Shown piece after piece: positions 14,711-33,259 of a stretch of DNA of 64,000 bases. The stretch spans positions 2,976,001 through 3,040,000 of the forward strand of contig NZ_JAATJK010000001.1 of the NCBI RefSeq assembly GCF_011927785.1, in the 5' to 3' direction. The position numbers were made by a program, and so were the translations under genes. The number at the start of each line of letters is the position of its first letter. Position 1 is the stretch's first letter. The stretch comes from Micromonospora profundi (lineage in GTDB: Bacteria; Actinomycetota; Actinomycetes; Mycobacteriales; Micromonosporaceae). Under the pieces are notes generated by a model. That model saw nothing but the letters and a program-made list of their open reading frames with translations. It had not been told where the DNA came from and made no database searches.

Positions 14711-14829
14711 TCCCGTCAGACCATGCTCCGGCGAGGGGAATGCGTCGGCCCGACAATATGTTGCTGAGCATAAGATGCGTCCGACAGACGATGTGTCTGG
14801 ACAACAGTCATCGAGGATTGGATGAGGAA

Positions 14830-17133
14830 ATGCCTGATTACGGCCATGAACTTCTGTTAGGGACGTTCCTGACGCCGAGCGCCCGGGATCCCGACCAGGT
14901 GATGGCGCTGGCCGAGCTGACCGAGGCGGCAGGGCTGGATCTCGCCACCTTCCAAGACCACCCGTACAACCCGGACTTCCTCGACACCTGGACCCTGCTC
15001 AGTTGGGTGGCCGCCCGCACCGAGCGGCTCCGCGTCTCCGCGAACGTCCTGAACCTGCCGCTGCGTCCGCCCGCAGTCCTGGCCCGCGCCGCGGCGAGCC
15101 TGGACCGGCTCTCCCACGGCCGGTTCGAACTCGGCCTCGGCGCCGGCGCCTTCTGGGACGGAATCGAAGGCATGGGTGGACGCCGGCTGACCGCCGGCCA
15201 GGGCGTCGCGGCGCTGCGCGAGGCGATCGACGTCCTGCGTGGCGTATGGGAAGACACGTCGGAGCCGCTGCGCCGCGACGGGACGTACTATCCGGTCCCC
15301 GGCATGCAGCGCGGCCCGACGCCGGCGCACGACATCGGCATCTGGCTCGGCGCCTACCAGCCGAAGATGCTGAAACTGACCGGCCAGAAGGCCGACGGCT
15401 GGCTGCCGACACTGGAGTACCTCCGGTCGCCGGACCGGGTCACCGCCAACCGGCTCATCGACGAGGCGGCGGTCGAGGCGGGCCGGGACCCACGCGAGAT
15501 CCGGCGACTGCTCAACCTGTTCCAGGTCAGCGCGTCGTCGCACAACCGTGGCTTCCTCCAGGGTCCACCCGAGCAGTGGGTCGACCAACTCCTTCCGCTG
15601 GTCCTCGAAGAGGGGTTCAGCTCCTTCCTGATCGGCCGCGACGACCCACGACTCATCCAGACCTTCGGGCAGGAGATCGCCCCCGCGCTGCGCGAGGCCG
15701 TCGCCAAGGAGCGCACGGGACATCACACCGAACAGGGACCGGTCCGGTCGGCCGTCGCCCTCGCCCGACGCCAGCCCGGCGTCGACTACGACGCACTGCC
15801 CGAGTCCCTGGCCACCAAGGCCGTCGAGCCCGGCGATCCGCAGTACGAACGTGTGCGCCACAGCTACATCCGGCAGGGTGCGCCAGCCCTGGTGATCCGC
15901 CCGGCCAGCGCCGCCGACGTGGTGGATGCGGTGGCGTACGCGCGGACGCAGGACGTACCGCTGTCGGTGCGCAGCGGCGGCCACGGCATCAGCGGCCGGT
16001 CGACGAACGACGGCGGGATCGTGATCGACATGTCGGGGATGAACAAGGTGGAGGTGCTCGACCGGGCCACCCGCCGGATCCGGCTGGAGACGGGTGCCCG
16101 CTGGGGGCACGTCGCCCAGGCGCTTGCCCCGTACGGCCTGGCGATGAGCTCGGGTGACTACGGCGACGTCGGCGTCGGCGGCCTCGCGACCACCGCCGGT
16201 ATCGGATACCTCGTCCGCAGGTACGGGCTGACCATCGACCACATCGTCGCCGCCGAGATCGTCACGGCGGACGCCACACTGGTCCGGGCTGACGCCGAGC
16301 ACCACCCCGACCTGTTCTGGGCGATCCGCGGCGCCGGCGGCAACTTCGGTGTGGTCACCGCGCTGGAACTGGAGGCGTACGAGGTCGGCGATGTCGTCTT
16401 CGCACAGCTCACTGTCGACGCGAGCGACGCCGCCGGCGTGCTCCGTCGCTGGGGGCGGCTCGTCGAGGACGCGCCGCGGGAGATCAGCAGCTTCCTCAGC
16501 CTGTTTCCCGGCCGCCGGGGCAACCCGCCGATGGCCCAGGTGACCCTCGTGCACGCCGATGACGACGTCGAAGCGGCGCAGGCCGCCCTGGGTCCGTTCC
16601 TGGAGATCGGCCCGATCCTCGACCAGCACGCCCAGCTCGCGCCGTATCCGGCGATCGTCGCGCCGCCCGGCAACCAGCATCGCGGGCAGGGCCTGAGCGA
16701 CACGCACAGCGGACTGTTGCACCACATCACCCCGGAGGCGGCGGATGTCATGGCGGCAATGATCCGCTCCGGCGACGTGATGATCATGCAGTTCCGGTCC
16801 GTGGGCGGCGCCGTCAACGACGTCGACCGGGACGCGACCGCCTATCCGCACCGGGAGCAGAACTTCGCGGTGCTCGCCGCCACCGTCGCGGACCGCAGGT
16901 CCCAACTCGACAAGCTCTGGGCCGACCTGCGCCCACACCTCGACGGCATGTACCTCAGCTTCGAGTCCGACACCGCCCCGGAGCGGCTGCTCGACGCCTG
17001 GCCCGAGCCCACCCTCAGTCGGCTGCGCGCCATCAAGGCCACGTACGACCCGGACAACGTCTTCAACCGCAACTTCCCGATCCCACCGGCACCCGCACGG
17101 CAAACCAGAGAGGAGGCCGACGATGTCGTTTGA
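14830..17133 (+). CDS. Fusion: luciferase-like flavin oxidoreductase + FAD-linked (BBE-type) oxidase
   Basis: A 767-residue two-domain enzyme. Residues 1 to about 300 are an LLM-class (bacterial-luciferase-like, FMN or F420) TIM-barrel oxidoreductase: GTFLTPSARDPDQV, LGLGAGAFWDGIEGMGG, GIWLGAYQPKMLKLTG. Residues about 305-767 are a berberine-bridge-like FAD oxidase: PASAADVVDAVAYAR, then RSGGHGISG with H385 at the position of the covalent 8-alpha-histidyl FAD link, GAGGNFGVVT, and the family C-terminus YDPDNVFNRNFPIPP. The usual second (cysteinyl) FAD-linking residue seems absent. Start ATG 14830 was chosen over upstream ATGs because the family N-terminus begins here. It overlaps the next gene by 11 bases. 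Substrate unknown. Confidence 0.85.
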   Translation: MPDYGHELLLGTFLTPSARDPDQVMALAELTEAAGLDLATFQDHPYNPDFLDTWTLLSWVAARTERLRVSANVLNLPLRPPAVLARAAASLDRLSHGRFELGLGAGAFWDGIEGMGGRRLTAGQGVAALREAIDVLRGVWEDTSEPLRRDGTYYPVPGMQRGPTPAHDIGIWLGAYQPKMLKLTGQKADGWLPTLEYLRSPDRVTANRLIDEAAVEAGRDPREIRRLLNLFQVSASSHNRGFLQGPPEQWVDQLLPLVLEEGFSSFLIGRDDPRLIQTFGQEIAPALREAVAKERTGHHTEQGPVRSAVALARRQPGVDYDALPESLATKAVEPGDPQYERVRHSYIRQGAPALVIRPASAADVVDAVAYARTQDVPLSVRSGGHGISGRSTNDGGIVIDMSGMNKVEVLDRATRRIRLETGARWGHVAQALAPYGLAMSSGDYGDVGVGGLATTAGIGYLVRRYGLTIDHIVAAEIVTADATLVRADAEHHPDLFWAIRGAGGNFGVVTALELEAYEVGDVVFAQLTVDASDAAGVLRRWGRLVEDAPREISSFLSLFPGRRGNPPMAQVTLVHADDDVEAAQAALGPFLEIGPILDQHAQLAPYPAIVAPPGNQHRGQGLSDTHSGLLHHITPEAADVMAAMIRSGDVMIMQFRSVGGAVNDVDRDATAYPHREQNFAVLAATVADRRSQLDKLWADLRPHLDGMYLSFESDTAPERLLDAWPEPTLSRLRAIKATYDPDNVFNRNFPIPPAPARQTREEADDVV

Positions 17134-21463: not shown

Positions 21464-22535
21464 GCGGCACTGGTACGGGTCGCTCCACCACCGTCGTCAG
21501 CTCCATCCGCTGGCCCTCGGCCGCCGACCGGAGCAGGGCGGTCATCGTGTCGAGTACGTGCAGCGCGACGTCGCCTCCGGCGCGCGGCGGACGCTCACCG
21601 TCGGCGGTGACAAGGTCGATCAGACCGACGCCCCGGGACGCCTCCGCGTAACCGGCCAGCGGTTCGACAACGCGCCATTCGGTGCCTCCGAGCGCGCAGA
21701 GCCGGACCGGCCCGTCGAAATTGTTCGGGTCGGGTACGGCGAGAGTGCCGGTCTCCCCGTGCACCTCGATCGGTGCGGCAGTCGTCGCGACCCCGTCGAA
21801 GCTCATGGTGATGGTGGAGAGAGCACCGTTGACGTGTTCGAGCACGCCTGTCACGTGGGTGTCCACCCCAACCGGAATCCGCTGGCCGAGACGCGGGCCC
21901 GAGCCGATGACGCGCTCGGGGCGCAGGCGGCTGACGGTTCCGCCCACCGCGTGAACCGGCCCGAGCAGGTGGATGAGCGTCGAGATGTAGTACGGCCCCA
22001 TGTCCAGCAGCGGGCCGCCGCCCGGGGCGTAGTAGAAGTCGGGGTGGGGATGCCAGCGCTCGTGCCCCGGCGTGACCATGACGGCCGACGCGGACAACGG
22101 GCGGCCGATGAGCCCGCCGTCGATCGCCGCCCGCGCCGTCTGCGTACCGGTGCCCAGAACGGTGTCCGGCGCGCACCCGACGCGGACGCCGGCCGCCGCG
22201 GCGCGTTCGACGATCGAAAGGCCGTCCTCGAACGTCACGGCGAGCGGCTTCTCGACGTACACGTTCTTGCCCGCGTCGATCGCGCCGAGCGAGATCTCGG
22301 CGTGCGCCGCGGGGATGGTCAGGTTGAGCACCGTCTGCACGTCCGGGCGGGCGAGCAGACGCTCGACGGTCAACGCCTCGGCGTCGGGGATGGTGGCCGC
22401 CGCCGCAGCAGACCGGGCAGCGTCGAGGTCGGCCAGCGCGGCGATGCTCACCGCCGGGTGGTTCGCGAGTGTGTTCAGGTACGCGCGGGAGATGACCCCG
22501 AGACCTACGACGCCGACGCGGTGCGGGTCGCCCAC
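21408..22535 (-). CDS. Gfo/Idh/MocA-family NAD(P)-dependent oxidoreductase
   Basis: A 375-residue dehydrogenase of the glucose-fructose oxidoreductase / inositol dehydrogenase family. The Rossmann motif is VGVVGLGVISRAYL, and the catalytic lysine motif is YVEKPLAVT near residue 95; the C-terminal half forms the beta-sheet domain with GGGPLLDMGPYY. The GTG at 22535 lies inside the end of the ThuA gene (31-base overlap), so the two are one operon. Family members oxidise or epimerise sugars and cyclitols, often at C3; substrate here unknown. It converges with and overlaps the DUF2470 gene by 56 bases. Confidence 0.88.
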   Translation of the reverse strand: MGDPHRVGVVGLGVISRAYLNTLANHPAVSIAALADLDAARSAAAAATIPDAEALTVERLLARPDVQTVLNLTIPAAHAEISLGAIDAGKNVYVEKPLAVTFEDGLSIVERAAAAGVRVGCAPDTVLGTGTQTARAAIDGGLIGRPLSASAVMVTPGHERWHPHPDFYYAPGGGPLLDMGPYYISTLIHLLGPVHAVGGTVSRLRPERVIGSGPRLGQRIPVGVDTHVTGVLEHVNGALSTITMSFDGVATTAAPIEVHGETGTLAVPDPNNFDGPVRLCALGGTEWRVVEPLAGYAEASRGVGLIDLVTADGERPPRAGGDVALHVLDTMTALLRSAAEGQRMELTTVVERPVPVPLTPRRAASAALRRGRRSW

Positions 22536-23215
22536 ACCATCCCCCTCTCGATGACGGTACGGACGCCCGGGTGCTCCAGCACGTCGAGGCTGTGCCCCGG
22601 GGTGGTCACGACGACGCGCCCGGCACCCCAGAGTCGGGTCCAGATCGCCGGCGAGGTGACCGGCCGGTGCCACGGATGCCACTCCTGCGTCGGGTGGGTC
22701 GTCACGGCCAGGACGTCGATGAGGTCGTCGTGCAGCACCCAGTACTGCTCGGTGACCAGGTCGAAGTCCTCGATTCCCGTGGTGATCGGGTGTTCCCGGC
22801 CGAGGTCGGTGATGCGCACGGTGTGCGGCAGGAAGTTGTCCTCCTCGCCACCGTGACGCTCGCACGGCTCCCGACCCGGGTGGGTCGCGAACTGGCCGCC
22901 CACCAGATGCAGGTACTCAGAGGACGCGCGGAACGAGTCCACGATGCCGCCGTGCCAGCCGGTGAACCCCGTACCGGCGATGACCGCCGCGCTGAGGCCC
23001 GCCGACTGCTCCGCGGTGATCTGCGACATCGTCATGCACTGCACGACGAGGTCGGTGCCGGCCATCTCGGCGGCGTCGGCGTAGATCTCCGTCGACTCCT
23101 CGACCCGTACGACATAACCACTTCGTTCGAGGAATGGGATGAACAACTCCGTCGCCTCGACCGGCCGGTGCCCCTCCCAGCCGCCCCGGACCACCAACGC
23201 TCTCCGCTGCGCCAC
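22505..23215 (-). CDS. ThuA-like domain protein
   Basis: A 236-residue protein of the ThuA family (class-I glutamine-amidotransferase-like fold), named for trehalose utilisation. Recognisable elements are RALVVRGGWEGHRPVEATELF, TGFTGWHGGIVDSFR and the C-terminal WGAGRVVVTTPGHSLDVLEHP. GTG 23215 is preceded by GGAGGGAG. It is the first gene of the ThuA-Gfo operon; this pairing is widespread in actinomycetes and is associated with disaccharide or glycoside oxidation. No transporter or sugar hydrolase lies next to it here. Confidence 0.87.
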   Translation of the reverse strand: MAQRRALVVRGGWEGHRPVEATELFIPFLERSGYVVRVEESTEIYADAAEMAGTDLVVQCMTMSQITAEQSAGLSAAVIAGTGFTGWHGGIVDSFRASSEYLHLVGGQFATHPGREPCERHGGEEDNFLPHTVRITDLGREHPITTGIEDFDLVTEQYWVLHDDLIDVLAVTTHPTQEWHPWHRPVTSPAIWTRLWGAGRVVVTTPGHSLDVLEHPGVRTVIERGMVWATRTASAS

Positions 23216-23340
23216 CCTCGCTCCCTCCGTGCCTGTCGAGAACCGACACCGTACTCGCGGTTGCCGCCTCGGACCATTGACGCGGAGTACGCTTCGGCCG
23301 TCGCAGCGGAAGACCCGCCCGGTGGGCGCCTGCTGGGTCG

Positions 23341-23365
23341 GGATACTCAGGACGGCCGAGTATCC
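23341..23365 (+). promoter_or_regulatory. Inverted repeat upstream of the four-gene operon
   Basis: GGATACTC (23341-23348) and GAGTATCC (23358-23365) form a perfect 8-bp inverted repeat with a 9-base spacer, centred about 55 bases before the start codon. It lies between the divergent ThuA gene and the operon at 23408 and is a good candidate for a regulator site. Confidence 0.5.
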
Positions 23366-23394
23366 GGCATCAGGCGCCCCACTCGAAGATCCAA

Positions 23395-23400
23395 TAGCCT
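23395..23400 (+). promoter_or_regulatory. -10 element TAGCCT of a leaderless transcript
   Basis: TANNNT hexamer whose last base is eight bases before the GTG at 23408. Transcription would begin at or next to the start codon. There is no Shine-Dalgarno sequence. Confidence 0.5.
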
Positions 23401-23407
23401 GGGGCGC

Positions 23408-24949
23408 GTGGTGACATTCCTGCGCCGATGGACGTTGCGCTTCGCGAGCTTCGCCCTGACCTGGCTCTACACGCTGTACCGGATCCATCCGGCGATGTGG
23501 CGGCTCACCGCGCGTCAGTATCGTCCGTACATGGGTCGGTTCGCCCGGCTGCACGCCTGGATGACCTGCCAGTTCGCCGCTATCGACGTGCCCGCGTACG
23601 GCGACTACCTGCGCCGCAACCATTGGCGGTTCCGGTGGTTCGACCTGTCGTCGTACCCGCCCACCGACAAGCGGTCCTACGTGCAGGCGTACCCGGAGGC
23701 GCAGCGTTGTTGGCACGGTGAGATCGAGATCGCCGGCAGCGTGGTCGACGAGTCGTCGGGCTCGTCCGGTCAGCCGTTCAACTGGATCCGCAGCCGCCGG
23801 GAGTTGCGCTCGGTCCACAAGAACCTGGCCGGCTACGCCACTATGGTGTTTCCGTCGAAGCGGCGGTTCGTCATCAATGCGTACTCGATGGGTGCCTGGG
23901 CCACCGGGACCAACACGGGCATCGCCATGTCCACGATCGCCATGGTGAAGAACACCGGACCGGACCTGCAGAAGATCGTCGACACCCTGCGGTACTTCGG
24001 GCCTGGCTTCGACTACATCGTCACCGCGTACCCGCCGTTCCTCAAGCATCTGCGCGACAAGCTCGACGCCGAGGACTTCCCGTGGGCTGAGTACCGCATC
24101 AGCGGCCTGGTCGGCGGTGAGGGGATGACCGAGGCGCTGCGCGACTATCTCCAGGAGCGGTTCGTCAAGGTGCGCTCCGGCTACGGGGCCAGCGACCTCA
24201 CCATCGGCATCGCAGGTGAGACCGACTTCAGCGTCTGGGTCCGCCGGCGTCTGCGTACCGACGTCGCGCTGCGGACCGCCCTGCTGGGGGCCGACGAGCA
24301 TCGGCTGCCGATGGTCTTCCAGTACAACCCGCTCGAGACGTACCTGGAGACCACCTCGGACCAGGAGGTGCTCTGCACGATCAACTCGACGGCGCTGCTC
24401 AGTCCCCGGGCCCGCTACAACATCGGCGACGAGGGCCGACTGGTCTCGTACCCGGACGTCGTGGCCGCCATCGCCGACCCCGAAGCGCGGGCCGAGGCGG
24501 AGCGCGCCTGGCAGGTCGACCGGATGCGGCTGCCGTTGCTGTTCCTGTACGGCCGCAAGGACAGCACGATCTCGTACATGGGCGCCAACATCTACCCGCA
24601 GGACGTCGAGTACGGCCTCTACACAGGCAATGCGCAGGCGCACCTGCTGCAGAGCTTCTGCCTGGAGTTGACCGAGCAGGCCGACCTGGAGAGCCGGCCG
24701 GTCGTCCACCTGCAACTTCGCGAGCACCTGGCGCTCGACCCCGACCAGCGTCGAAGCCTTGTGGACACCTGTCGCGCCGGGGTCCTGCGTCACCTCGCCG
24801 AGGTCAGCCGCGACTTCGCCGAGTCCCTCGCCGAGGATCCGTCCGCCGCCGACCTGCGGGTGGAGGTCCACGAGTTCGGCACCGGCCCCTTCGCCGACGC
24901 CGCCTCTAAGATCAAAAACGTGTACCTGGTGAAGGGCGTGACGGTGTGA
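23408..24949 (+). CDS. Adenylate-forming enzyme, PaaK/CapK-like (acyl-CoA or acyl-AMP ligase family)
   Basis: A 513-residue protein resembling phenylacetate-CoA ligase / coenzyme F390 synthetase-type enzymes, which activate a carboxylate as acyl-AMP. The Ser/Gly-rich ATP loop is ESSGSSGQPFNW (about residue 115). Further family-like stretches are GYGASDLTIGIAGE, the C-domain hinge region YNIGDEGRL and LPLLFLYGRKDSTISYMGANIYPQDVE. The N-terminus is basic and hydrophobic. A GTG at 23408, directly after a TANNNT box, is the likely start (GTG 23411 also possible). It heads a four-gene operon with GTGA or ATGA overlaps. The activated acid is unknown. Confidence 0.75.
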   Translation: MVTFLRRWTLRFASFALTWLYTLYRIHPAMWRLTARQYRPYMGRFARLHAWMTCQFAAIDVPAYGDYLRRNHWRFRWFDLSSYPPTDKRSYVQAYPEAQRCWHGEIEIAGSVVDESSGSSGQPFNWIRSRRELRSVHKNLAGYATMVFPSKRRFVINAYSMGAWATGTNTGIAMSTIAMVKNTGPDLQKIVDTLRYFGPGFDYIVTAYPPFLKHLRDKLDAEDFPWAEYRISGLVGGEGMTEALRDYLQERFVKVRSGYGASDLTIGIAGETDFSVWVRRRLRTDVALRTALLGADEHRLPMVFQYNPLETYLETTSDQEVLCTINSTALLSPRARYNIGDEGRLVSYPDVVAAIADPEARAEAERAWQVDRMRLPLLFLYGRKDSTISYMGANIYPQDVEYGLYTGNAQAHLLQSFCLELTEQADLESRPVVHLQLREHLALDPDQRRSLVDTCRAGVLRHLAEVSRDFAESLAEDPSAADLRVEVHEFGTGPFADAASKIKNVYLVKGVTV

Positions 24950-25392
24950 GGACCAGCGACTTCTCGGCTGCGCCTCCGGTGGGCCAGGCGACAGCGATGT
25001 TCGTCGGCGCCACCCGCTACCGCGGGCCGCGCTCGATCCTCACGCTCACCCGTGTGTGGTTCAAGATGGTGCGGCAGATGAAGCGGATGGACGGCTACCG
25101 GTGGCACACCGTGTATTACCAGTTCCCCTTCACTCTCGGCACCATCGCCTTCTTCAGCGACCGCGACGCGCTGCTGAAGTTCGCCCGCAGCCGCCACCAC
25201 CGCGACCTCATGTGCTGGGTCACCGATCACGGCACGAAGAACGCGACCGGTGGCTACATCCGCCTGTACAACGCCGAACCCGAGGGCTACAGCAACGGCG
25301 TCTGGCGGGCCGAGTCCGACGGCATGGCACACATACCGACCTTCACCCCGCTGTCCACCGAGACGTCCGGCCCGACGGTGCACCGCTCATGA
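24946..25392 (+). CDS. Small protein, possible dimeric alpha/beta-barrel monooxygenase-like fold
   Basis: 148 residues, no signal peptide or membrane helix. The middle part (SILTLTRVWFKMVRQMKRMDGYRWHTV, then GTIAFFSDRDALLKFARSRHHRDLMCWV; described in two pieces) resembles the order of elements in DUF4188/antibiotic-monooxygenase-like ferredoxin folds, where a strand reporting on a single field is followed by a helix beginning near a dimer interface. This resemblance is weak and I would not assign an activity. It starts with GTG overlapping the upstream stop (GTGA) and ends overlapping the next start (ATGA), so it belongs to the operon's function. Confidence 0.7.
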   Translation: MRTSDFSAAPPVGQATAMFVGATRYRGPRSILTLTRVWFKMVRQMKRMDGYRWHTVYYQFPFTLGTIAFFSDRDALLKFARSRHHRDLMCWVTDHGTKNATGGYIRLYNAEPEGYSNGVWRAESDGMAHIPTFTPLSTETSGPTVHRS

Positions 25393-26474
25393 GGCTGGTT
25401 CCCGTGCAGTCGAGGGCTGACCTGCGGGCGTTCCTCGACTTCCCGCTCCGGCTCCACCCCATCGACCGGTACGTGCCCCTGCTGTCATCGGTCATCGCGA
25501 ACCACCGCCGCACGGCCGAGCTGTTCCTGGTCCGCGATCGACACGGCGCCGTCGTGGGACGTACCAGCATGCACCGCAGCGCGGCCTTCGACGCCAAGGT
25601 TGGCCCCCGGCAGTTGTTCGGGCACACCGAGTTCGTCGATGACGACGACGTCTTCGCCGCCATCATGGACGGCGTCGAGGCCAGGGCCGGCGGCCGACCG
25701 ATCTTCGGCCCGGTGGCGCTGCTGCCCAACCAGACCGGCGGGGTGATCACGTCCGGCTTCGCCGACCGCGGCTTCGTGGACTCCGCGTGGAACCCCGCCT
25801 ACTACCCGACGATGTACGAGCGGCATGGCTTCCACCGTCGCTTCGAGGCGGACACCTGGCTTGTCGACCTCGACGGTACGGCCGCCGGCGACCACGACCA
25901 CGGGTTCGCCTTCGACGACGCCCGTATCGCCGCCGAACAGCTCGTCATCCGGCACGGCTCCCGGTGGCGCCTGCGCAGTCAACTGCCGATCCTGCGGCAG
26001 ATGCTCAACGCGAGCTTCGCCCAGCTCGGCTACTACACCACCATCTCCGCCGAGCAGTTGGCGGAGCAGACGGACGGCCTCGCCTTCCTGCTCGACGAGT
26101 CGCTGCTTCTCTGGTTGGAGAAGGCGGGCCGTCCCGTCGCGTTCGTCGTCACAGTGCCGGACATCTCCGAGTACCTCATGAGCATCGGCGGCCGGCTCGG
26201 CGTCACCAACCAGGTCCGCCTCCTCGCCACCCGCAACCGGTACCGTCGTGACGCCGTCCTCATCATCAAGGGCACGGTGCCCGACGAGCAGGGCAAGGGG
26301 TACCTGACGCTGCTGTCCCGGGAACTGCACCGCAACCTCGCCAGCAACGGGTACCGCACCTTGCGCAGCACCTTCGTCGAGCGGACGAACGACGCCTCGG
26401 CCGCCCAGTACCGGCGCGCGGGCGGACGGCCGCTGCACGGGTACACCTTCTACGAGAAGGTGGCGGCGGCGTGA
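25389..26474 (+). CDS. GNAT-like N-acyltransferase domain protein
   Basis: A 361-residue protein. The C-terminal part (about residues 280-358) has a GNAT-like acetyl-CoA motif, GTVPDEQGKGYLTLLSRELHRNL, followed by a late strand-helix pair ending FVERTNDASAAQYRRAGGRP; the N-terminal half resembles a second, degenerate copy. Such double-GNAT proteins transfer acyl groups to amines or act as uncharacterised peptidoglycan-type acyltransferases. It uses an ATG overlapping the preceding stop. In this operon it could transfer the acyl group made by the adenylate-forming enzyme, which is inference only. Confidence 0.7.
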   Translation: MRLVPVQSRADLRAFLDFPLRLHPIDRYVPLLSSVIANHRRTAELFLVRDRHGAVVGRTSMHRSAAFDAKVGPRQLFGHTEFVDDDDVFAAIMDGVEARAGGRPIFGPVALLPNQTGGVITSGFADRGFVDSAWNPAYYPTMYERHGFHRRFEADTWLVDLDGTAAGDHDHGFAFDDARIAAEQLVIRHGSRWRLRSQLPILRQMLNASFAQLGYYTTISAEQLAEQTDGLAFLLDESLLLWLEKAGRPVAFVVTVPDISEYLMSIGGRLGVTNQVRLLATRNRYRRDAVLIIKGTVPDEQGKGYLTLLSRELHRNLASNGYRTLRSTFVERTNDASAAQYRRAGGRPLHGYTFYEKVAAA

Positions 26475-27367
26475 GCTGGGTGCAGCAGTTGCGGGCCAAC
26501 GAGGCGATCTGCAACCGGGCACCGAGCGCGCACAACACGCAGCCGTGGCGACCGGAATACCAGGCCGACAGGATCGTCATCGATGTCGACGCGGCCCGCA
26601 GCCTGCCCGACTCCGACCCGACCGGCCGCGATCTGGCCCTCGGCATCGGCGCCTTCGTGGAGACCTGCCTCATCGTCTCCGCCGAACTCGGTCTCTCCGT
26701 CGCCGCGGCCCCCGGCCCGCAACTGATCCCCGCGGCGAACCGCTACCGGACTCCCTTCACGATCGCCGACGTCGAGGCCCGCCGGGTCGCCCGTGGTCCC
26801 TACGAGCCCGGGTACGTCGACGCTGACGTCATCGCCGACCTGGAGCCCGGCATCGCGCACGTTCCGGCCCGGGATCTCGCACCGGATCTGGAGGTCGCCG
26901 ACCGCTGGATGTTCGGCACGCCAGCCGTCGCTGTCGAGTTGCGGGACTGGCTGCGCCTCAGCCCACGCCATCCCCGGTACCACCTCGACGGGCTCACCGA
27001 CCGGGCGCTCGCCCTGTCCCGGTCCGATGCGTGGGCCCTGTCCGCCGCGCTTCGCGCGTACCCCGTCACCCGCCGGCTGGGCCTTGCGGCCCTGCTCGCC
27101 GCCAGCGGCCGCGGCCTGCTGCGTTACGACGGCAGCGTCCTGGTCCTGCTCGCCGACGGCGACGACCACATCGCCGCGGGCAGGCGCCTTCTGCGGACGT
27201 GGCTGACTCTCGCCCGGCACGGCCTGGCGGTCCATCCGCTCAGCCAGCTCATCGACTGCCCGGCGACGGTCGCTCGGCTCGCAGAGCGGGTGGGCGGCCA
27301 ACCCCTCGCGGTGTTTCGCGTCGGTCACCCTCTCGCCGAGCCGGTCCGCTCAGCACGACGCATGTAG
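26471..27367 (+). CDS. Nitroreductase-like protein (Acg subfamily)
   Basis: A 298-residue FMN-fold protein. The N-terminal APSAHNTQPWRPEY (about residue 18) is the NxQPW signature of nitroreductase-like proteins, and the layout resembles the Acg subfamily, in which the lid can bury FMN and activity is often lost; ADGDDHIAAGRRLLRTWLTLARHGLAVHPLSQ (read as two parts) is the C-terminal family helix. The GTG overlaps the upstream stop (GTGA). It ends the operon; roles could be reduction, dehydrogenation of an azoline or flavin storage, and none can be chosen from the sequence. Confidence 0.8.
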   Translation: MSWVQQLRANEAICNRAPSAHNTQPWRPEYQADRIVIDVDAARSLPDSDPTGRDLALGIGAFVETCLIVSAELGLSVAAAPGPQLIPAANRYRTPFTIADVEARRVARGPYEPGYVDADVIADLEPGIAHVPARDLAPDLEVADRWMFGTPAVAVELRDWLRLSPRHPRYHLDGLTDRALALSRSDAWALSAALRAYPVTRRLGLAALLAASGRGLLRYDGSVLVLLADGDDHIAAGRRLLRTWLTLARHGLAVHPLSQLIDCPATVARLAERVGGQPLAVFRVGHPLAEPVRSARRM

Positions 27368-27436
27368 GAATCTTTCCTGCATCAATATTTAGTGGTATCT
27401 ATTTCACACCGATCCTCCTAACCACCGGAGAGCGAC

Positions 27437-28240
27437 GTGTGGAGATCCCGCCTGGCAACTCTCGCCCTGAGCCTGGCCACCGCCACGGCTGCCACCCTCA
27501 CCCTGACAGCGCCCGCACAGGCTGCGCCCGCCGACCACTACGTCGCCCTCGGCGACTCCTACTCCTCCGGAGTGGGTGCCGGTAGCTACACCGCCGAAAG
27601 CGGTTCCTGTCAGCGCAGCACCAACGCCTACCCGGCGCTGTACGCCACCAACGTGCGACCCGCGTCGTACCGCTCGGTCGCCTGCTCCGGTGCCACCACC
27701 ACCAGCGTGATCAACACGCAGCTCAGCGCGCTCAGCGCCACCACCACACTGGTCAGCGTCACGGTCGGCGGAAACGACGTCGGCTTCGCCAACATCATGA
27801 CCACCTGCGTGCTCTACGGGACCACCGACTGCGTGGCAGCCGTGCAGGCCGCCGAGAACAAGGCCCGCGCAGACCTCCCCGCCCTGCTGCGCGCCGTCTA
27901 CAACGGAATCCGCACCCGCGCGCCCTCGGCCCGCGTGGTGGTCGTCGGCTACCCGGTCTTCTACCAACTGGGTACGACGTGTGTGGGGCTCAGCGCCACC
28001 TCCCGCGCGAAGATCAACGAGGGCATCAACCTGGTGGTTGACATCATCCGAACCGCCGCCCAGGCCGCCGGCTTCACCTTCGCCGACGTACGGTCGAAGT
28101 TCGTCGGGCACCAGTTGTGCAGCTACGGCGAGAAGTGGTTGCACGCCTTGAATTTCGCGAACATCGGCGTCTCCTACCACCCGACTGCGGCAGGCCAGTC
28201 CGGCGGCTACTACCCGGTCTTCCGCTCCGTCGCCGGCTGA
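27437..28240 (+). CDS. Secreted SGNH/GDSL lipase-esterase
   Basis: A 267-residue exported hydrolase. The signal peptide (basic start, hydrophobic 8-25, cleavage after about AQAA at 30) is followed by block I GDSYSSG with the nucleophile S41, block III GGND, and the catalytic His in SYHPT (H248). Six cysteines in the mature part allow three disulphides as in the Streptomyces SGNH lipases. GTG start with GGAGAG six bases upstream. The 70-base gap before it is unusually AT-rich and probably holds its promoter. Likely substrates are lipids or acylated plant polymers. Confidence 0.92.
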   Translation: MWRSRLATLALSLATATAATLTLTAPAQAAPADHYVALGDSYSSGVGAGSYTAESGSCQRSTNAYPALYATNVRPASYRSVACSGATTTSVINTQLSALSATTTLVSVTVGGNDVGFANIMTTCVLYGTTDCVAAVQAAENKARADLPALLRAVYNGIRTRAPSARVVVVGYPVFYQLGTTCVGLSATSRAKINEGINLVVDIIRTAAQAAGFTFADVRSKFVGHQLCSYGEKWLHALNFANIGVSYHPTAAGQSGGYYPVFRSVAG

Positions 28241-30608: not shown

Positions 30609-31649
30609 GTGATCGATGAAGGCCACGGACGCCAATCCCGCAAGCCCTGGCGCGGTGACCTGCCCATCGCCACGATCGCCGAACTGGCCGGGGTCTCCCC
30701 ACCGACGGTCTCCAAGGTCCTCAACGGTCGAGGTGGCGTGGGCGAGCAGACCCGACTGCGGGTGGAGGCGCTGCTACGCGACCACGGTTACCGCCGACGG
30801 CAGGCCAGCGGCGCGGCCCGCTGCATCGAGGTGGTCTTCCACCAGATGCTGCCCTCGATCGCCATGGAGATCCTTCGAGGTGTGCAGGAGGTTGCCGGCG
30901 CGAGGGACTACACGGTCGGCTTCAGCGATGTCCGGCGGCGCATACTCGCGGGCCAACAGTGGGTGGAGCCTCTGCTCATGCGCCAGCCGGCCGCCGTCAT
31001 CACTGCGTTCTCCCTCATCACCGCCGATGACGGCAAGCGGTTCGCCGCAGGCGGCATACCGCTGGTCGCCATCGATCCGACAAGCGACCTCTCCCCCACG
31101 CCCGCGGTCGGGGCGAACAACTGGAGTGGTGCTCTCGCCGCCACCCGGCATCTTCTCGACCTCGGCCACCGGCGGATCGGTGTGATCACCGGGCCGGTCA
31201 ACGACCTGTCCGCGCGGGCCCGCCTGGACGGCTTCCGCGCCGCGTTGGACTACGCAGGCGTGCCGTTCGACGAAACCCTCGAACGACGTGGCGTCTTCAG
31301 CTTCGACGACGGCAACGAACTCGGTGCTGAGCTGCTTGCCCAGGACGCACCGCCGAGCGCCGTCGTCTGCGGCAACGACCTACAGGCGTTGGGCCTCTAC
31401 ACCGCGGCCCGGGCTCGTGGCCTGCGGGTTCCGGAGGACCTCAGCGTCACCGGCTTCGACGACATCGATCACGCACCATGGCTGACCCCGCCCCTGACCA
31501 CGGTACGACAGCCCTTCGGTGAGATCGGTGCCACCGCCGCCCGGCTGGCCCTGGCCCTTGCCGAGGGCGGTCGCCTGGCCCAGGAACGGTACGAACTCGG
31601 CACGACCCTCGTCGTCCGTGGCAGCACCGCACCGCCGGCCGCCCGATGA
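30609..31649 (+). CDS. LacI-family transcriptional repressor
   Basis: A 346-residue sugar-responsive regulator. The N-terminal HTH is IATIAELAGVSPPTVSKVLN with hinge GRGGVGEQTRLRVEALLRDHGY (described in two parts), and the C-terminal periplasmic-binding-protein-like domain includes LDLGHRRIGVITG, DGFRAALDYAG and VTGFDDIDHAPWLTPPLTTVRQP. It lies divergent to the GH30 xylanase with a GTTAGCGCTAAC operator between them, so a xylan-derived oligosaccharide is the likely inducer (inference). A similar operator occurs before the GH10 gene. Translation appears leaderless from GTG 30609. Confidence 0.92.
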   Translation: MIDEGHGRQSRKPWRGDLPIATIAELAGVSPPTVSKVLNGRGGVGEQTRLRVEALLRDHGYRRRQASGAARCIEVVFHQMLPSIAMEILRGVQEVAGARDYTVGFSDVRRRILAGQQWVEPLLMRQPAAVITAFSLITADDGKRFAAGGIPLVAIDPTSDLSPTPAVGANNWSGALAATRHLLDLGHRRIGVITGPVNDLSARARLDGFRAALDYAGVPFDETLERRGVFSFDDGNELGAELLAQDAPPSAVVCGNDLQALGLYTAARARGLRVPEDLSVTGFDDIDHAPWLTPPLTTVRQPFGEIGATAARLALALAEGGRLAQERYELGTTLVVRGSTAPPAAR

Positions 31650-32127: not shown

Positions 32128-32170
32128 TTGACATGTCATTGAAACCTCCGCTAGCTTCTGTGACATGTCA
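32128..32170 (+). promoter_or_regulatory. Promoter with two TGACATGTCA operators
   Basis: A consensus -35 TTGACA (32128-32133), 18-base spacer and -10 TAGCTT (32152-32157) place the start of transcription at the ATG at 32165. Two perfect TGACATGTCA palindromes overlap the -35 (32129-32138) and the start codon (32161-32170). They form a larger mirrored pair, CGTTGACATGTCA and TGACATGTCAACG. Binding of the adjacent MarR protein would occlude the promoter. Confidence 0.75.
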
Positions 32171-33259
32171 ACGAATACAGCGGCCGCATCCCTGCACGTA
32201 CTGGTCATCGTCGCGAGCACCCGCCCCGGACGGCTGGGCCCGGCGATCGCCGACTGGTTCGTCCAGGCGACCCTTCCGGCAGCCTCTTCCGGCGAGGTCA
32301 CTCTCGACATCGCGGACCTGGCCGACATCGGGCTGCCGCTGCTCGACGAACCCGAGCACCCCAGCAGCGGCGTGTACGCGCACGAGCACACCCGGGCGTG
32401 GAGCCGACGGGTTGCCGCAGCCGACGCGTTCGTCGTGGTGACACCCGAATACAACTACGCAATGCCGGCGGCGTTGAAGAACGCCTTCGACTTCCTCTAC
32501 CACGAGTGGGCGTGGAAGCCTGTGGCGTTCGTCAGCTACGGCAACACCTCGGCCGGCACCCGCTCCGTGCAGATGGCCAAGCAGGTCGTCACCACTTTGA
32601 AGATGATGCCCATCGGCGCCACCGTCGCTCTGCGCATCGCCGATAGCACCAGCAACGGTCAGGTGCTGCGATCGGCAGGACTCGACGAGACCGCCCGCAG
32701 AATGCTGCTTGAACTGACCCGGGTGGCCTCAGCGATGCGGCCCCTGCGTACCGAACCCGAGAGTGAGGTCACCGGGCCTGTCGACGGGCTGAGGCTGACC
32801 ACAGCCCAGCCCGACGACCTGGCCGAACTGCTCGTGCTCCAGCGGTGCTGCTGGGTGCAGGAGGCCCTCGCGAACGACACCCTCGACCTGGCGCCGCTGC
32901 GGGAAACGCTCGACGAACTGCGCGAGTCGATGTCGACCTGGCACCTGTGGTGCGTACGGCGGCATGGGCGCCTCGTGGCAGCGGTGCGGGCGCGGGCGCG
33001 TGAGCGCGCGTGGCTGATCGGCCGCCTCATGGTCGCTCCCGACCAGGCCGGCAGCGGCATCGGCACCTGGCTCCTCTCACACATCGAGCAGCAGGCCCCC
33101 CAGGAGGCCGCGCACTACGAACTGTTCACCGGCCGCCGCAGCACCCGCAACATCCAGCTGTACGAACGCGCCGGCTATGCCCTCTCCCCCGCTGAAGGCA
33201 CCCCGCACGACGCCGTCCGCCTCACGAAACAGCGGCAACCGGTCGCCCGTCTCGGGTGA
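32165..33259 (+). CDS. Fusion: NADPH-dependent FMN reductase + GNAT acetyltransferase
   Basis: A 364-residue two-domain protein. Residues about 10-190 are a flavodoxin-like NADPH:FMN reductase (VIVASTRPGRLGPAIADW for flavin phosphate binding; TPEYNYAMPAALKNAFDFLY for the flavin ring). Residues about 205-358 are a GNAT acetyltransferase (LMVAPDQAGSGIGTWLLSHIE with the acetyl-CoA loop; NIQLYERAGYALSPAEG). No frameshift separates them; the join is continuous. It is probably repressed by the divergent MarR. The combination suggests detoxification: reduction of a quinone or nitro compound, then N-acetylation of the resulting amine. That pathway is inference. Confidence 0.85.
   Translation: MSTNTAAASLHVLVIVASTRPGRLGPAIADWFVQATLPAASSGEVTLDIADLADIGLPLLDEPEHPSSGVYAHEHTRAWSRRVAAADAFVVVTPEYNYAMPAALKNAFDFLYHEWAWKPVAFVSYGNTSAGTRSVQMAKQVVTTLKMMPIGATVALRIADSTSNGQVLRSAGLDETARRMLLELTRVASAMRPLRTEPESEVTGPVDGLRLTTAQPDDLAELLVLQRCCWVQEALANDTLDLAPLRETLDELRESMSTWHLWCVRRHGRLVAAVRARARERAWLIGRLMVAPDQAGSGIGTWLLSHIEQQAPQEAAHYELFTGRRSTRNIQLYERAGYALSPAEGTPHDAVRLTKQRQPVARLG

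Follow-up and report, generated by a model that had tools for sequence, protein, structure and literature searches.

What could a compact block of four overlapping genes make, when it encodes a putative adenylating ligase, a possible monooxygenase, an acyltransferase and a flavoprotein-like enzyme? This question is raised by genes A, B, C and D of Micromonospora profundi (GCF_011927785.1, contig NZ_JAATJK010000001.1), which lie within the 64,000-nucleotide stretch from 2,976,001 to 3,040,000 that was analysed as a whole and is referred to below as the window. All four are on the forward strand. Gene A (23408..24949) encodes a PaaK-fold, adenosine monophosphate (AMP)-forming ligase of 513 amino acids (aa) with a predicted N-terminal helix (residues 4-24), its start being ambiguous given a second, alternative GTG at 23411. 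Gene B (24946..25392) encodes a 148-aa af470/ABM-type barrel protein, possibly a monooxygenase, and gene C (25389..26474) a 361-aa tandem-GNAT acyltransferase related to proteins linked to serine palmitoyltransferase (SPT), that is, of the bacterial ceramide-synthase type. Gene D (26471..27367) encodes a 298-aa protein resembling Acg-type flavin mononucleotide (FMN) oxidoreductases, with the motif RAPSAHNTQPW. We propose, with a probability of roughly 45%, that this cassette is a self-contained pathway of acid activation, N-acylation and redox tailoring that leads to an amide-type product.

Conservation of the four-gene unit

A scan of public species genomes with an alignment of A as the query gave 275 pattern stretches and 240 confirmed relatives, of which the best 80 were kept. 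All 80 loci are titled Actinomycetota; as these are the ones closest to A, it carries little weight that no other phylum figures among them. Searches with tblastn located B after A in all 80, C in 78 and D in 79, with order and strand constant (C was not found in L053 and L054, nor D in L102). An earlier note on this DNA, made from the letters alone, had named gene order confined to close relatives as a sign against an undescribed pathway; the A-B-C-D order is kept across families, namely in Micromonosporaceae, Streptomycetaceae, Microbacteriaceae, Brevibacteriaceae, Cellulomonadaceae and others. The same note had described a four-base overlap at every junction, and the coordinates agree: GTGA at 24946..24949 (A ends at 24949, B starts with GTG at 24946), ATGA at 25389..25392 (B ends at 25392, C starts with ATG at 25389) and GTGA at 26471..26474 (C ends at 26474, D starts with GTG at 26471). 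Across the junctions counted in the kept loci, a start codon that would produce a 4-bp overlap exists at 31/80 for A-B, 55/68 for B-C and 62/67 for C-D, so the overlap is commoner at the latter two than at A-B.

The association goes as far as gene fusion. Fusions that place two or three of B, C and D in a single reading frame are seen in 18 of the 80 loci, with B joined to C in ten (Pseudoclavibacter, Microbacterium, Serinicoccus), C joined to D in 11 (Brevibacterium, Nesterenkonia, Auritidibacter, Serinicoccus) and all three together in three (Serinicoccus); one of the 18, L099, has C split over two frames and may hold an error. Conserved order, overlaps and fusions together bear out the earlier suggestion of one functional unit. 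All four genes are under purifying selection, with ratios of non-synonymous to synonymous substitution (dN/dS) of 0.13-0.23 against two orthologous loci.

The surroundings of the cassette differ from locus to locus. Outside A, B, C and D no gene family recurs in more than 14 of the 80 loci in the flank comparison, in agreement with the earlier remark that additional genes typical of a known cluster are missing; for a carrier protein this result covers the flanks only, and such a gene may lie elsewhere. Ribosomal-protein genes stand beside some Streptomycetaceae copies and other housekeeping genes beside some Brevibacterium copies, as judged by eye from the protein starts. The lack of a recurrent transporter, regulator or carrier, combined with the wide family spread and repeated fusion, points to a small, complete pathway.

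Among the window genome and 40 relatives, A is present in 13 of the 41 and B in 11; within the genus, the window and 8/24 relatives carry the two together. Ten relatives' loci, all with close A and B, were fetched, and nine of them carry A-B-C-D in order on one strand, the contig of the tenth stopping after B. A broader set of 396 Actinomycetota genomes contains A in only 12, counting the window and one congener, and the cassette is therefore patchy.

Relationships of the four proteins

The earlier note had named an acyl-activating enzyme, a possible acyltransferase and a nitroreductase-like flavin protein. The first two assignments are upheld by the PaaK fold of A and the two GNAT domains in each chain of C; in the third, the flavin-type fold stands, whereas the generic nitroreductase label gives way to the Acg type (NF047509, 2ymv). 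The azoline-like product or cofactor adduct that it envisaged found no support in this analysis.

A belongs to the PaaK-fold AMP-forming ligases at the superfamily level, from which an adenylating activity is predicted. The motifs DESSGSSG, YGASD, YNIGDE and GRxDS and the C-terminal Lys503, whose roles we assume from general knowledge, are conserved at 90% or more, or only slightly less, across 50 rows. Its closest known counterparts are PaaK and the PaaK-type AMP-ligases NatL2, AjiA1 and ClxA. A differs from PaaK in its length of 513 aa with the extra N-terminal helix and in a genomic setting unlike that of phenylacetate degradation, and it scores 27.3 bits against the NCBIfam PaaK equivalog TIGR02155, below the cut-off of 646.3. 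An F390-synthetase-type role is only remotely conceivable, as TIGR03335 matches 7/50 A proteins and more weakly than PaaK; a single Pfam match to MTP_lip_bd (E 0.0044, 1/50) was treated as chance.

C is related over its whole length to the SPT-linked tandem-GNAT N-acyltransferases, a comparison set that contains no experimentally proven ceramide synthase. Its profile aligns these relatives from profile position 2 to 367 with E down to 6.3e-50, and 21 conserved positions are common to both. P298, G302 and G304, which we take to form the acyl-CoA (coenzyme A) loop, are invariant in 46 rows, and N-acylation is predicted on the strength of these relations. An SPT-like gene adjoins the C-relative in 8 of 12 non-cassette loci, which were chosen among the better profile matches and not at random, as well as on a Rubrobacter plasmid, and an NAD-epimerase-like gene is also present in three of these SPT-bearing loci. 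Such neighbours are expected for bacterial ceramide-synthase-type enzymes, a name that goes with literature on Caulobacter. Unlike most of these relatives, C has no SPT neighbour in the kept loci, and in the cassette it is always accompanied by A, B and D; ceramide synthesis proper was set aside because no SPT adjoins the cassette. The best SPT-like match in the window genome is 35% identical, its class being unassigned.

D matches NCBIfam NF047509 (Acg/Rv3131) with E 1.7e-39 and 136.2 bits, short of the curated cut-off of 199, and its family profile matches the solved Acg structure 2ymv with E 5.9e-14, indicating homology. The motif RAPSAHNTQPW is invariant in 10/10 proteins, and FMN binding is predicted from it. 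The function of Acg-type flavoproteins is poorly understood. D also matches NF005901, the Rv1355c family (E 6.9e-11), two fetched members of which carry ThiF and nitroreductase domains. In both systems an adenylating partner goes with an Acg-like protein; that of D is a PaaK-fold protein and not ThiF. A FeeM-like N-terminal GNAT domain was sought in the Rv1355c-type proteins with Pfam, which gave only ThiF and nitroreductase in L145 and L151 and no match for the piece from L149.

B, to which the earlier note had assigned no family, is of the af470/ABM type. Pfam PF13826 (af470-like) matches 42 of 51 B-family proteins at E<=0.1 (best 3.5e-6), a family-wide relation, and the ABM family PF03992 matches 14 of the 51 at the same threshold; window B itself reaches 21.1 bits against PF13826, below the Pfam gathering cut-off of 25, and neither B nor its profile matched a solved structure in the PDB. 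The af470-like and ABM monooxygenases, which have a link to fumagillin, lack the conserved N- and C-terminal arms that are added in B and that part from the core in the duplicated copies. A tandem B pair in one frame was observed in 25/80 loci (for example L067:9584-10495, L081:9581-10378 and L069:9540-11552; L094, a single B with a tail, was left out). Scored on the 38 positions that reach at least 85% conservation among 50 single B proteins, copy 1 retains mean fractions of 0.85 (N-terminal), 0.37 (core) and 0.98 (C-terminal), and copy 2 retains 0.13, 0.90 and 0.30, respectively. The two copies thus show reciprocal decay, copy 1 keeping the termini and copy 2 the core. The N-terminal contrast is to some extent a product of how copy 2 was cut: a core motif set the cut, to the advantage of core positions 19-25 and at the expense of the N-terminus of that copy. 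The C-terminal contrast is independent of the cut. In the three loci of Serinicoccus each part is a gene of its own, with the core-like gene coming first. The simplest reading is that B is a dimer in which arms and core meet from different chains, and the split duplicated enzymes offer a direct test of how an active site is built in this barrel family.

Proposed pathway and its alternatives

In the proposed pathway, A would turn a carboxylic acid into an acyl-AMP and then, in the manner of PaaK, into a thioester, probably with CoA as the carrier. C, taken to be a CoA-dependent enzyme with tandem GNAT domains like those expected to acylate sphingoid amines beside SPT genes, would move the acyl group onto an amine that is probably hydrophobic or carried in the membrane; this may place the step at the membrane. 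B, as an ABM-type oxygenase, and D, as an Acg-type flavoprotein, would set the oxidation state of the acid or of the product. B, C and D may work in proximity or as a complex, and the site of a B dimer would comprise the terminal arms of one chain and the core of another.

Several observations weigh against this proposal. The matches of A, B and D to their families fall below curated cut-offs, and Pfam AMP-binding (PF00501) matches only 1/50 A proteins at E<=0.01. C is only 23-29% identical to its SPT-linked relatives, 4 of whose 12 fetched loci have no SPT, and a search of the 80 cassette loci at E<=1e-20 found neither an SPT nor an epimerase relative, so that a sphingoid base need not be the substrate of C. 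The two loci in which C was not found belong to Streptacidiphilus and keep A, B and D; they offer a natural experiment on whether C can be dispensed with. A scan of 22900-27700 for sigma-70-type promoters and terminators found none, so a single transcript of A, B, C and D is predicted from the packing of the genes.

A further objection comes from loci that pair A with D but hold neither B nor C, as the core reaction may therefore not be N-acylation. Ten distant A loci were fetched: one (L113) has A-B-C-D, six from more distant Actinomycetota (L114-L119) have D beside A with neither B nor C, and in three (L120-L122, the last two fragmentary) D was not found. D in L117 and L118 was matched with E 1e-23 to 1e-28, and an acyltransferase-3-like gene precedes D and A in both, on a domain match in L117 and from its position and protein start in L118. 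On a plasmid of Gemmatirosa (Gemmatimonadota; L156), D is followed by A, again without B and C; the N-terminus of this D (L156:6649-7830) resembles by eye a twin-arginine signal followed by a cysteine, and the protein may be exported. It could accordingly be that A and D alone are the working core, with A adenylating a carboxylate and D acting on the activated acid, for example by reduction or ring oxidation, and that B and C are later tailoring enzymes, C being an acetyl- or acyltransferase for the finished product. A quick tree of A (51 of the 80 loci, 29 having been dropped as near-duplicates or for size, and without L121 and L122) places the A-B-C-D rows on one side of a branch with support of 99, and six of the seven rows with A and D alone cluster together outside that clade, the seventh adjoining it. 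The match of D to the Rv1355c family, in which a ThiF (E1-type) domain is joined to an Acg-like/nitroreductase domain, also favours such a pair. However, the tree carries long-branch warnings (L113, L114 and others), A stands without D in three of the ten distant loci, and ThiF and PaaK folds are unrelated, so that the parallel is one of domain logic only. On balance we consider an A and D core, although the main alternative, doubtful.

It is unlikely, in our view, that A is an amide ligase that passes its acyl-AMP straight to the amine, C merely acetylating, a mode of direct ligation that is used by GH3- or NatL2-type enzymes. A role in the breakdown or detoxification of an aromatic acid or nitro compound, with ligase, oxygenase and reductase steps and an N-acetylation, would fit the PaaK similarity, the ABM-type and nitroreductase-type families and the patchy presence within the genus, but it is the least probable of these explanations, since the flank comparison reveals no ring-cleavage or beta-oxidation genes travelling along and the fusions suggest a fixed multistep assembly.

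Returning to the acid-activation and N-acylation pathway, we tentatively extend it to a hitherto unrecognised class of actinobacterial lipid-like or aryl amides, for which a ceramide-synthase-type N-acyltransferase would have been recruited from sphingolipid synthesis and combined with a PaaK-Acg pair of older origin and an ABM oxygenase, giving a self-sufficient unit, with a B-C-D complex, in dozens of genera; the split B would then reflect an active site between subunits. The combination of genes, the fusions and the split B look new, judged apart from the published record, the protein families themselves being known. If correct, this would assign a product to an Acg-type flavoprotein and a role to a ceramide-synthase-type enzyme away from sphingolipids, and the four-gene unit would lend itself to expression and readout in a single step.

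Mobility and neighbouring genes

Two distant versions of the cassette exist in the genus of the window, that of the window grouping, in the tree of A, near Dactylosporangium roseum and the other near Pseudonocardiales and Nonomuraea, which suggests at least one transfer between lineages. A LacI-type regulator near the cassette in the window (30609-31649) has a 78% identical relative at L029:13076-14113, directly behind the distant version of the cassette in another congener, as though the two versions occupied a common neighbourhood. Widespread plasmid carriage was rejected, with only three such records, one being a Nonomuraea record of 11.85 Mb labelled plasmid; a phage origin was likewise rejected, none of 50,697 phage records matching A, as was a known anti-phage defence system, PADLOC giving 0 matches for the four proteins at E<=0.01.

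Upstream of A lies a ThuA-like gene on the opposite strand (22505-23230). A GDSL-type lipase/esterase gene (27437-28240) begins 70 bp past D on the same strand, and a signal peptide is apparent by eye in its product, a lipase/acylhydrolase. In 11 loci of Microbacteriaceae or their genera (L068:12769-13785, L071, L083, L089 and seven more), an alpha/beta-hydrolase family gene occurs at most ~420 bp past D, on the opposite strand in five and beginning at the D stop codon in four; the one that was scanned is hormone-sensitive-lipase-like. The window GDSL gene is thus once more an esterase after the cassette, yet of another family. A transfer RNA scan of the window found none. Elsewhere in the window, 32165-33259 encodes a 364-aa fusion protein that unites an NADPH-dependent FMN reductase domain with a GNAT domain, and 14740-17133 encodes a 797-aa protein with luciferase-like monooxygenase and FAD-binding (BBE-type) oxidase domains.
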